From Pelodera strongyloides (taxonomy: Eukaryota; Nematoda; Chromadorea; Rhabditida; Rhabditidae): a DNA stretch of 64,000 nt. Of this stretch, positions 27,801 to 36,094 are shown one piece after another (positions within the stretch are counted from its first letter, which is position 1; every line of letters starts with the position of its first letter). The position numbers and the translations under genes were made by a program. The notes under the pieces were generated by a model. The model was given only the letters and a program-made list of their open reading frames with translations, was not told the DNA's origin and searched no databases. The DNA lies in assembly GCA_036852015.1 (NCBI GenBank), contig JAANDG010000090.1:62001-126000 (forward strand), given 5' to 3'.

Positions 27801-28153
27801 TTCTTCTTTATCGCATTCTATATGGGATATCACTGGCTTACTGCAGTTGTATTCCTTATTGGTTAGTTTGATTTCCAGTAATGATACCATTTGTTACTCA
27901 TGAAAACGTACAATCAACATAAAACTTCTAAATAACCGAATCCTGCGAAGATAGAACCTTAATTTTAGGTATCATCGTCGCCTACGTCCCTGAAGGACTG
28001 CTTCCCACTGTTACAGTGTGTCTGACTCTGACAGCCAAGCGAATGGCTTCCAAGAATTGTCTGGTTAAGAACCTCGAGGCTGTCGAGACTCTGGGATCCA
28101 CCTCCACCATCTGCTCTGACAAGACTGGCACCCTTACTCAGAACAGAATGACT

Positions 28154-28165
28154 CTGACAAGACTG
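28154..28165 (+). other. 12-nt filler at the insertion junction
   Basis: Bases between the interrupted exon 8 (ends 28153) and the left LTR (starts 28166). Together with the two preceding bases they repeat CTCTGACAAGACTG from 28114-28127, about 38 bp upstream. No target-site duplication is visible across the element, so the junction looks like templated repair, not a standard integrase product. Confidence 0.8.
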
Positions 28166-28554
28166 TGCATCAGCTGAAGATAAGCAATAGAACAATCGTA
28201 ATTGACAATGCACTTCAAGAGGATTACTGCAAATCCGAGAAAGACACAATCAATAAATGCCAATCACCAAAGACACAATAAATAATAAGTTTACCTGATT
28301 AAAGTCTGGTTCCAATAGAAAGAAGTGATAGAGGGGAAGTGATGATATCAGCATCCGGAGCTTACGTCATGAGCGTAACCAATCGACACCAACCGCCGCA
28401 GCACACAATAACACCAACCGCGAACAGTGATAAATCCCTTTAAGGTCAAAGGGTAACCCGGTATTGATGTGCAGGTTCTGGGAATGGCTGTACCCTACGG
28501 GTACGGTTACGGTACCTCGGTTGTTCTTTATAGAGTTACGCGGTACGCGGAACA
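28166..28554. repeat. Element 1 LTR, left copy (389 bp)
   Basis: TGCATCAGCTGAAG ... GCGGAACA. Same sequence as 32698-33086 except one C/T difference. Just inside it, a stretch that includes the LTR end is partly duplicated (about 28533-28640: GCGCGGAACACTCCGAACTT recurs in variant form). Confidence 0.93.
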
Positions 28555-30425
28555 CTCCGAACTTGAGAAAGTTGTTATACCGTGGTTGTTTATAGAGTTG
28601 CGCGGAGCGCGGAACACTCCGAACTTGAGAAAGTTGTTAACCGCTTGAAAATGTTACGAAGCAAAATGTCAGTGGTCCTTGATAAGTGTAGTGATGGATC
28701 AACCGAATCGTGTATTTGTGTTCGTGGTCCTACTGTTTGTTTTATTACAGTAGTATTTATACTTGTGATAGAATACGGTAGGTGGGTAGGCAAGTGCTTA
28801 TTGAACAACGTTTAGTTGCATGGATCTTGGGACGCAGCAGACTTGTAGTAATAACGTGGTACACTATAGTATACCTCATAACATAATAGGCATGAGAAAG
28901 AAGAGCGTGATGCTATGGGTGATAATTAAGGAAGACTCAGTGTTTAGAAGTAAGAATAATGATGGTAGGAAAGATGTTTAGTCATTTATAGATATTCTTA
29001 ATGAGTAAGATTGAATTGTTCGAAAGAAAGAGAATTTATTCGATTCGAAATAAAATAAGATCAATATGATAATTATACGATAAATAAATTTGTTTGTTCG
29101 GTTCGAGGAAAGAAGAACGTGTTCGTATTTTTAAGAACCGAATTTGTGTTCATAATAACGGTATGTGATTGTAGCAGTTTTATGTGATATGATGAAAATA
29201 AGATGTAATCGAAAGCAATATAATAGTGGTGTAAAGTAAAATTATAATCTAAATAAAATAGTAATGTACTGTAATCGGTGTGATATTGTGTCTAAATAGT
29301 GGATATATTACCGTAGCAATGCGTCGCGTTGCGCGTCGCGGCGTCATCGTTTTCCGAATTATTGATTGATTTCGAAAAAATATTTTTTTTTGTTCGGCAA
29401 GAAATGATGTTTTGGTTGTTGTTTTAGATGTTTTTGTTTGTTCTTTCTTTGTTAAGCTTATCGTTAGCCGTGTTGCAATCATTATATAGTGTTTTCGTTG
29501 CCGGATTCCTTCGAGAATTCATAGGAATTGATGTTTTGTTAAATTTAGCTTATTTTTCTGCTTGTTTGAAGGTATTTAGACTGTTTGATACGATAGTTAA
29601 CGAATGATAGCTTCAGGCTACTGCGTTTTGTGGTTCTGCATGACGATGCAAATGATCCACCAATTGGTCGATGAACGTCCAAGCCCCAAGCAGTCGATAT
29701 AAGGTATGATGTTTGGCAATTTTTTTATTTTTCATTGCTCGTGTTTCTTTAACACCTATTTGACTGATAGGTGCACCTCAGTAACTGTTGTTAAGTTTCT
29801 CGTCTTTTGTGCGACAATTGCTTGACGGTTTGTTAACCGTTGATTGTTGTTTGTGTTCTGATGAAACGAACAGCGTATTTAGAGTATTTCTCGCTTAAAT
29901 CATGTGTTTTGTTTCTGTGATTGCTTGTTTGTTTGGTTTATTGGCGATTTGATTGATTTATAACATGAACTGTGTGTTTAGATGGATTCACATTCGCTTG
30001 GAATTGGGTGGTATCGAAGCAATTGATTGTGTTGGATGGACTCGTATAAGGAACAGGTTTATCTAGTAAGTGATAGTTTTGTTTGTTTTATCCTTATATC
30101 ATAGTGTTATTTTTTGTTTCTATTGATTTCTAATGATTTTCAAACTGTGTCATATGAATTCATCTCGTCATTGCGATTGTTTAAATAGTTAGGCAGCTGA
30201 GGCTGAGGCCACTGCTTGTGACTATCTGTGTTTGATTCATCGTGATAGTCGTTTGTTTGATACTGATGATGGCCGTCTGGTCGAGGTGTATAATCATCTT
30301 GTGATTGGTCAGATGTGGATTCATCAGTATCTGATGAAGATTGTTCTCGATGAATATTGTAGCTGTCGTTTTGATATTGTTGTCCATAAATAATTGCATT
30401 TTCTAGGTTATCACCTTCCGACGTC

Positions 30426-33086: not shown

Positions 33087-33373
33087 GTCGCCCATTTATG
33101 GTACGATCATCAAATCGAAGAGTGCGATACAACAGAAAATCAAACAGGAGCTCACAAGAAGAAGGGCAGTGAGACATTTAAAGCTTTTACAAAGGTCGCT
33201 GCTCTCTGCAATAGGGCCGAATTCAAGCCCGGACAGATCGACATTCCCGTTCTGAGGAGAGAGTGCGCAGGAGATGCTTCCGAGATTGCTCTTTTGAAGG
33301 TAGGCGATTTAGTTTGTTTTAGTCCTGAAAGATGCCTCATATGCTGCGAGAAACACATCATGGAAACCAAAAA

Positions 33374-33411
33374 GGGCTAGTCGCGCTATCGCGCTATCGC
33401 GCGGCTAGCCC
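33374..33411. repeat. GC-rich hairpin with tandem CGCGCTAT units
   Basis: In intron 8 of pump copy 3. GGGCTAG and CTAGCCC flank repeated TCGCGCTA units, so the whole could fold. A related palindrome (TTAGCGCGATAGCGCTAA) lies at about 42457-42477. Confidence 0.7.
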
Positions 33412-36094
33412 CAATACACGTACATGTGTTTACAATCTTCTTTTTAGTTCACGGAGCTGACACTTGGAAACACCACCGCAGTTCGTGACAAGAATCGAAA
33501 AGTTGCAGAGATTCCCTTCAACTCGACCAACAAGTACCAAGTAAGCCGAACACCAAAGTCGATTATAAAAAAGATTTATCATTTACTTCTTGCTCGGCCG
33601 GTAGAAGTCTCGGCCGGTAGAACTTTTTACTAGTAACGGTATGTCTTTTAGGTCTCTATTCATGAGGTCCCTGATTCGGATAAGTATCTCCTTGTGATGA
33701 AGGGTGCCCCGGAGAGAATCCTCGACGTCTGCTCAACTATTCTGATCAACGGACAAGAACATGTTCTTGATGAAAAGCTGAAGAAGGTTTGCGTTAGACA
33801 TAGTCATGCCACAAATAGACCAGCTGTCGCATAGTTGATGACATTTGCAAGCTGAACGTTTTAGGAATTCAACGATGCCTATATGGAGCTCGGAGGAATG
33901 GGAGAGCGTGTTCTCGGCTTCTGCGACTACCAACTGGACAACCAGAAATTCCCCAAGGGATTCAAGTTTGACACCGAAGAGGTTAACTTCCCGCTCTCTG
34001 GACTTCGCTTCGTCGGTCTGATGTCCATGATTGACCCTCCCCGTGCCGCCGTGCCAGATGCCGTAGCCAAGTGTCGATCCGCTGGAATCAAGGTCGTCAT
34101 GGTCACTGGAGATCACCCAATCACTGCAAAGGCCATTGCCAAATCTGTTGGTATCATTTCAGAGGGAACCGAGACAGTTGAGGATATTGCCGCTAGAAGA
34201 GGTAAGAATTTTTGTTTGATTCGCCATTTTTTACAAACTTTGACTTCATGCATCAAAGTTTAAACTATTTATGCCTTTTCAGGGATTCCGGTAAAGGATG
34301 TGAACCCCCGTGAGGCGAAGGCTGCAGTTATTCACGGATCGGACCTCCGCGACATGGACGAGGAACAGTTGGCAGATATTATCAGAAACCACAGTGAAAT
34401 TGTTTTCGCTCGTACGTCACCCCAACAAAAGCTGATCATTGTGGAAGGCTTCCAGAAGCAGGGCCATATCGTAGCTGTCACTGGAGACGGAGTCAACGAT
34501 TCACCTGCCCTCAAAAAGGCTGATATTGGAGTTGCCATGGGTTGGTTTTTCACCTTGGTTTGCGTTGGTCTGTGGTCCTTGGTCAGCCTTGGTGGGTTGG
34601 TTTGCGTCAAAAATTACTTTAAATATTGATGCCCAGCAACTTTTCAAGTATAGAAACTTGTTCTTAGGTATCGCCGGTTCTGATGTGTCGAAGCAGGCGG
34701 CCGACATGATTCTTCTCGATGACAACTTTGCCTCAATTGTGGTCGGCGTAGAGGAAGGACGTCTGATCTTCGATAACCTGAAGAAGTCAATCGCCTACAC
34801 CCTAACATCGAAAATTCCCGAAATTACACCTTTCCTTACTTACATTCTTTTCGGAATTCCCCTTCCCCTGGGAACAGTTACCATTCTGTGCATTGACCTC
34901 GGAACTGACATGGTTCCCGCAATTTCACTTGCATACGAAGAGGCTGAGTCCGATATCATGAAGCGTATTCCCCGTGACCCCAAACAAGACAAATTGGTAA
35001 ACGAGCGACTGATCTCTCTTGCCTACGGACAGATTGGAGTGATCCAGGTGAGAAGTTATGCGTTTAATAAACAAGTAAGAATTGCTTTATCTAAAATATA
35101 TTCAGCTCTGGCCGTATTGTTAAGCGTATACTGATCAATGTTCGTATTACAGGCTGCTGCTGGATTCTTCACCTATTTCTGGATCATGGCAGACAATGGA
35201 TTCCTCCCACCAGATCTGTACCAGTTGAGAACGCAGTGGGATTCTCGTGCGTACAATAGCGTTCTTGACTCTTATGGACAGGTAAGATTTTCCATTTTCC
35301 TATGCAGCAAGTGTGTGTGGGGTGGTGCTGATGTTATTGGTTGAACACTGGCTTGCTTTCAGGAATGGACCTATGCAAATCGAAAGATTCTAGAAAACAC
35401 CTGCCAGACAGCTTTCTTCGTATCGGTCGTTATTGTGCAATGGGCTGATCTGATCATCTCAAAGACCCGCCGCAACTCCCTTGTCCAACAGGGAATGTCC
35501 AACTGGGTCCTCAACTTTGGACTCGTTTTCGAAACATGTCTCGCTGCCTTCATATGCTACTGTCCTGGCATGGACAGCGGTCTCAAGGTGTACGGGCTCC
35601 GGTAAGATTTTGTTCCATACTTTCTCATAACTCTCCTGATATGATTGCGAGTCAACAGTCGACTGAATCTACAACTAGGCATGTAACTGAACGCACCTTT
35701 CATGCGCTTCGTTTTGGTGATTACCAAGGGTTTCGCAATAAGGAGCCTCATCATGTTGTTCTATTCTAGATTCGCGTGGTGGTTCCCTTCACTTCCGTTC
35801 GCAGTTCTAATCTTCATCTACGATGAGGCCCGTCGTTACTGCATTCGTCGCTGGCCAGGAGGCTGGGTGGAGAGAGAAACATACTACTAGTTCCCAGAAG
35901 ACGGATGATAGACTTCAACAAAAATGAAGATCTCCCTGTTTCTAGAATGTCATTTTATTTACTGTCCTTCAATGAGTACAATTTACACATTTGCATAATT
36001 TCGTTCAACATTTATCACTGAGAGTAAGAGACAACGTACAGTAGTATAGGTTAAATATATACAGCCAAAAGCATTTATTGTGTCTGATGAGCTT

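Follow-up and report, generated by a model that had tools for sequence, protein, structure and literature searches.

Tyr and Lys at two ion-pocket positions of a disrupted tandem sodium pump gene in Pelodera strongyloides

The window analysed here is a stretch of 64,000 nucleotides from the nematode Pelodera strongyloides (assembly GCA_036852015.1, contig JAANDG010000090.1, positions 62,001 to 126,000), in which spliced gene models identify three tandem Na,K-ATPase alpha genes, all on the forward strand. The third gene (copy 3, 26225-35890) encodes Tyr and Lys at two positions of the ion pocket, in the fourth and fifth membrane segments (M4 and M5), where copies 1 and 2 have Asn at both. On the strength of its sequence, we regard it as an even call that copy 3 became a pump of reduced stoichiometry or altered ion selectivity, now disrupted in this assembly. 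This functional reading is plausible, and the Lys and an additional M4 Pro are better supported than an initial annotation of the same DNA, made from the letters alone, could know.

Ion-pocket substitutions and their distribution

According to the codons and the gene model, residue 311 in M4 of copy 3 is Tyr (TAC, 27983..27985) and residue 761 in M5 is Lys (AAA, 34811..34813), and the M5 motif reads TSKIPE in copy 3 versus TSNIPE in copies 1 and 2. A third change in M4, Ala318Pro (CCC, 28004..28006), affects a residue that is Ala in all 122 background sequences. The initial annotation had read the same two codons and had taken copies 1 and 2 to be ordinary at both sites, and both statements agree with the gene models; the additional Pro that it reported is also present, as the second and not the third residue after VPEGL. 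Alignment to solved structures places residues 311, 318 and 761 opposite vertebrate alpha1 residues Asn324, Ala331 and Asn776, in agreement with the equivalence proposed earlier for the two Asn. When scored against 16 residues that we take to line the ion pocket, copy 3 keeps 14, and both Asn are replaced. Copy 3 retains the acidic ion ligands on this list, the listed site III residues are unchanged, and the conserved Tyr of M7 is kept as residue 832 by numbering offset. Copy 3 lacks the full set of conserved ion-site residues, including Asn324 and Asn776, by which a Na,K-ATPase is recognized, and it has the Lys at the Asn776 position by which Lys-bearing sodium pumps of reduced stoichiometry are recognized.

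The best similarity of copy 3 is to Na,K-ATPase alpha chains (P2C). Residues 5-1001 match alpha1 at 1627 bits versus 1356 bits for gastric H,K-ATPase, identity to the best nematode proteins is about 83%, and the catalytic motifs are retained in the read-through protein.

The distribution of the substitutions was studied in 233 distinct proteins from three similarity-ranked lists, a non-random sample: the best 120 of 7987 scored candidates from a first search, and the best 120 each from two further searches with the M5 region and the M4 region as queries. The Tyr/Lys pair was absent from the best 120 of the 7987 candidates, none of which exceeded 83% BLAST identity to copy 3, and from all 233 retrieved proteins. 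In the M4 column, 227 proteins have Asn, two Lys, one Gly and three a gap, and Tyr is found in none of the 230 readable proteins; the M5 column contains Asn in 204, Lys in nine, Thr in one and a gap in 19. Among the retrieved proteins, both Tyr (M4) with Lys (M5) and the set Tyr-Lys-Pro occur only in copy 3. The possibility that the substitutions are general to nematode pumps was rejected, since the pair is in none of the best 120 matches, and the concern of the initial annotation that they might be common in nematode pump paralogues found no support in the 233 proteins. The presence of these changes in a further gene of the assembly was likewise rejected within the scope of the paralogue scan: C802, C120 and C667 read Asn/Asn, the matches on C320 and C159, which look like a calcium pump, miss M4 and M5, and the pockets of the other P-type matches C106, C19, C119, C530, C513, C413 and C56 were left unread. 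In the titles and abstract openings of the literature, searched in part with poorly aimed queries, no nematode sodium pump with Lys776 or Tyr324 was found.

The nine proteins with Lys in place of Asn776 come from Daphnia carinata and Daphnia magna (P0137 and P0140, both with Lys in M4 as well), from fish (five proteins, including zebrafish Atp1a1a.3), from Procambarus clarkii, and from the nematode Rhabditophanes (P0123). Because Lys776 is found in Daphnia, fish, Procambarus and Rhabditophanes, the M5 Lys is a recurrent solution, and this recurrence makes the Lys of copy 3 more interpretable and less unique. Two further nematode proteins have altered pockets: Rhabditophanes P0118 reads Arg-Lys-Thr at 774-776, and Parastrongyloides P0037 has Gly-Gly in M4. 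In a tree of the three copies and 22 chosen proteins, all three fall together with Mesorhabditis belari P0026, with a support of 0.98.

The M4 Pro also recurs. The identical Ala-to-Pro change at 318 is present in Procambarus P0226, and four of the five retrieved Lys776 fish proteins have Pro one residue earlier. With 24 of the 233 proteins dropped for gaps, Pro at 317/318 was counted in 6 of 11 proteins with a cation at M5 positions 774-776, versus 1 of 198 without one. Copy 3 and P0226 have four identical derived states in common, T123S and L293M among them, whereas none of the remaining 200 of the 201 adequately covered proteins shares more than two with copy 3, and the changed positions of copy 3 and P0226 overlap with p = 0.005 when column 318 is excluded, in a comparison chosen after the fact. 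The ostracod Notodromas monacha P0177 combines the additional M4 Pro with Arg at 774; the consulted literature passages contain no description of this pump (Arg774) or of P0226 (Lys776), two crustacean pumps in which an altered M5 and an M4 Pro occur together.

Constraint on copy 3 and its interruption

Pairwise ratios of nonsynonymous to synonymous substitution (dN/dS) among the three copies are 0.052, 0.085 and 0.076. In a codon model that used 845 of the 1001 codons, took two paralogues on other contigs as outgroups and fixed copies 1 and 2 as sisters, the branch ratio (omega) was 0.096 for copy 3, with a range of 0.070-0.146 over 60 bootstrap replicates, and 0.036 on the other branches. 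A model with two ratios was favoured over one with a single ratio (twice the log-likelihood difference, 2dlnL, 23.5), and omega = 1 on the copy 3 branch was rejected (2dlnL 51.4), also for the transmembrane codons alone (2dlnL 22.97), the boundaries of which we set from pump topology. Between copies 1 and 3, exons 6, 10 and 11 differ little at synonymous sites, which suggests past gene conversion between these copies; without these exons, omega for copy 3 is 0.090. Until recently, copy 3 was a diverging gene that evolved faster yet under clear constraint. The initial annotation had proposed selection until recently and had named a ratio near 1 as evidence against its reading of copy 3; selection until recently is upheld by the purifying selection detected, with a value far below 1, and by exon lengths that are kept apart from an insertion. 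An old pseudogene was rejected on the same low omega and a single lesion.

Columns with at least 95% conservation across 122 sequences were taken as conserved. Copy 3 departs at 14 of 582 such columns, including Asn311Tyr, Ala318Pro and Asn761Lys, and the corresponding counts, out of 581, are 0 for copy 1 and 2 for copy 2; 40 retrieved proteins scored alike show mostly 0-6 departures. Enrichment of the pocket among the conserved-site changes is no more than suggestive.

The lesion of copy 3 is a 4.93-kb repeat insertion in exon 8 (28154..33086, 4933 bp), on either side of which the exon parts of 185 and 213 bp add up to exactly the length of this exon in copies 1 and 2 (398 bp). The insertion begins with an 11-bp filler, followed by the first of two terminal direct repeats of 390 bp (28165-28554; the second at 32697-33086); because these repeats differ by one mismatch, the insertion is probably young. 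No target-site duplication was seen flanking 28154-33086, and the filler lies within a 14-mer that occurs again at 28114, in nearby exon sequence; on both grounds, an ordinary insertion with target duplication was rejected. Counting both of its copies in the window, the 390-bp repeat matches the genome at no fewer than 35 places, and at the other loci looked at, internal-type sequence lies on one or both sides of the unit. The longest open reading frame (ORF) of the insertion had no Pfam match, the remaining ORFs being left unsearched. Removal of the insertion by splicing through its edge GT and AG was rejected, as by our own count the frame would shift. Copy 3 is not an uninterrupted gene in this genome, and no second near-identical copy of its first exon 8 part and exon 13 was found in the possibly incomplete assembly, where the next best matches reach 88% and 87%, respectively.

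All three genes have 16 exons of identical lengths and encode 1001 amino acids, for copy 3 with the insertion removed, and all introns start with GT and end with AG. Apart from the insertion, the frame of copy 3 has no stop, frameshift or splice loss. Copy 1 (6531..13426) and copy 2 (16388..21878) have open frames and are 95% identical, and copy 3 is 88% identical to either. The 5' segment of copy 3 (26225..28153) comprises exons 1-4 (26225-26287, 26387-26446, 26605-26687, 26779-27004), exons 5-7 (27207-27350, 27442-27600, 27681-27861) and the first part of exon 8 (27969-28153). Its 3' segment (33087..35890) comprises the remainder of exon 8 (33087-33299), exons 9-12 (33448-33540, 33652-33786, 33865-34201, 34283-34540) and exons 13-16 (34668-35047, 35153-35281, 35363-35601, 35770-35890). 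Just 3' of copy 3, a 393-amino-acid open frame (36693-37874) had no Pfam match.

Proposed working and competing explanations

Copy 3 would have arisen as a lineage-specific tandem duplicate of an eat-6-type sodium pump. Its P-type engine would have been retained, and its K+/Na+ sites I-II altered by the replacement of Asn776 with Lys, of Asn324 with Tyr, and of Ala with Pro in M4. By analogy with known pumps, we infer a side-chain mechanism in which Lys761 acts as a tethered cation in the pocket and replaces one transported ion, as reported for the 2Na:1K pump of brine shrimp. Tyr311, like the gastric Tyr, would push M7 Tyr832 off the M5 residue, whereby the contact orienting Asn776 would be lost and room made for Lys, and the extra Pro may adjust the bend of M4 at the ion gate. 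Na+ export should persist, because the listed site III residues are unchanged. The expected stoichiometry and physiology would be fewer ions per ATP and operation against steeper gradients. The young repeat insertion later disrupted the gene in the genome sequenced here.

To our knowledge, 3Na:2K coupling of the sodium pump is close to universal in animals. The exceptions described in the literature consulted come from animals that are under salt stress or live in fresh water. A nematode example, if true, would put to the test whether changing one or two residues of the pocket is enough to alter coupling and whether the M4 Pro has to accompany them, with C. elegans as a laboratory host and copies 1 and 2 as internal controls beside copy 3. 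A wider proposal, which we put forward tentatively and with less than even confidence, is that the pocket of copy 3 is of a new design with coupling other than 3:2 in a nematode, formed by a gastric-type M4 Tyr, a tethered M5 Lys and a gate Pro; that duplication and rebuilding of the pump recur in nematodes as they do in fish and crustaceans (Lys776 and Arg-Lys-Thr in Rhabditophanes, Gly-Gly in Parastrongyloides); and that a Pro at the M4 gate is a recurrent companion of an M5 cation.

Several observations weigh against an altered pump. The 14 departures of copy 3 are not extreme, as Parastrongyloides P0037 has 22 and Syphacia P0020 nine. The placement of copy 3 is uncertain, copies 1 and 2 being paired in the tree of the codon analysis and copies 2 and 3 weakly (0.65) in the protein tree. 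P0179 carries the Pro with an ordinary Asn776, and T123S and L293M also occur together in P0143, P0131 and P0129. Of the six proteins with both Pro and an M5 cation, four belong to related fish, and similarity to copy 3 determined the ranking of the lists, so that the independent events number perhaps three besides copy 3. Replacement of Asn776 with Ala is reported to cut ion binding severely (PMC6987325). A simple freshwater story is weakened because climbing perch has Lys in freshwater and seawater isoforms alike (PMC4006040).

The main rival, and a serious one although we consider it unlikely, is relaxed constraint followed by decay: copy 3 would have been redundant, selection would have weakened, damaging pocket changes would have drifted in, and the insertion would be the final step, a new transport property never having existed. 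This fits the interruption of the gene, with no uninterrupted second copy found in the assembly, and the 2.7-fold higher omega of copy 3; because omega is raised both in transmembrane codons (0.124) and outside them (0.082), partial relaxation is possible. The pocket enrichment is also borderline (2/16 versus 12/566 conserved-site changes, Fisher p = 0.053, in a post hoc test that assumes all 16 pocket residues to be conserved columns). Against relaxation speak the strong rejection of omega = 1, which holds for the transmembrane codons alone, the confinement of conserved-site changes to 14 of 582 columns, the absence of any further lesion in the frame, and the match of Lys and Pro with states of other retrieved pumps.

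It is more improbable that selectivity rather than stoichiometry changed, the Tyr/Lys pocket being weak for K+ or handling H+ or NH4+, on the way to a pump that resembles H,K-ATPase and has ordinary or poor coupling to K+. The M4 Tyr is indeed the gastric residue (PMC8481561), and substitution of Asn776 is reported to lower the binding of both ions in the case of Ala and of Na+ in the case of Gln (PMC6987325, citing Pedersen 1998), but other marks of H,K-ATPases are absent, residue 760 being Ser and not Lys and residue 789 Asp and not Glu. Least probable by far is a role as regulator or partner with normal ion turnover lost, for which pump-independent roles discussed for C. elegans CATP-1 offer a precedent (PMC11631496), since the catalytic motifs and listed acidic ligands of copy 3 are kept and the same source also describes a CATP-1 role requiring pump activity.

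Comparison with known pumps

The likenesses to gastric Tyr and brine-shrimp Lys named in the initial annotation are borne out by PMC8481561 and PMC10812997. According to the former, Tyr340 of gastric H,K-ATPase, which is Asn331 in shark Na,K-ATPase, faces the M7 Tyr and displaces it from the conserved M5 Asn, and Tyr340Asn is one of five changes yielding a two-K+ gastric pump (PMC8481561). Copy 3 has this M4 Tyr at residue 311 and lacks the equivalents of gastric Lys791, one residue earlier in M5, and Glu820, having Ser760 and Asp789 instead.

Asn-to-Lys changes in M5 are described for teleost alpha isoforms of Anabas, Heteropneustes and salmonids, and one source states, after Jorgensen 2008, that the fish M5 Lys reduces Na:ATP (PMC6987325). 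The five retrieved fish Lys776 proteins resemble copy 3 in the M5 Lys but keep the M4 Asn. Procambarus clarkii P0226, an arthropod protein, resembles it in the M5 Lys, Ala318Pro, T123S and L293M, and also differs in keeping the M4 Asn.

Daphnia P0137 and P0140 have Lys at the same two positions that are altered in copy 3 and keep the listed M6, M8 and M9 ligands; unlike copy 3, they have Lys and not Tyr in M4, and no Pro at 317/318. Artemia alpha2KK, the brine-shrimp pump (PDB 8k1l), has the M5 Lys of copy 3 and Lys in M4 where copy 3 has Tyr, and Lys in both M4 and M5 is reported to permit cycling at 2Na:1K (PMC10812997).

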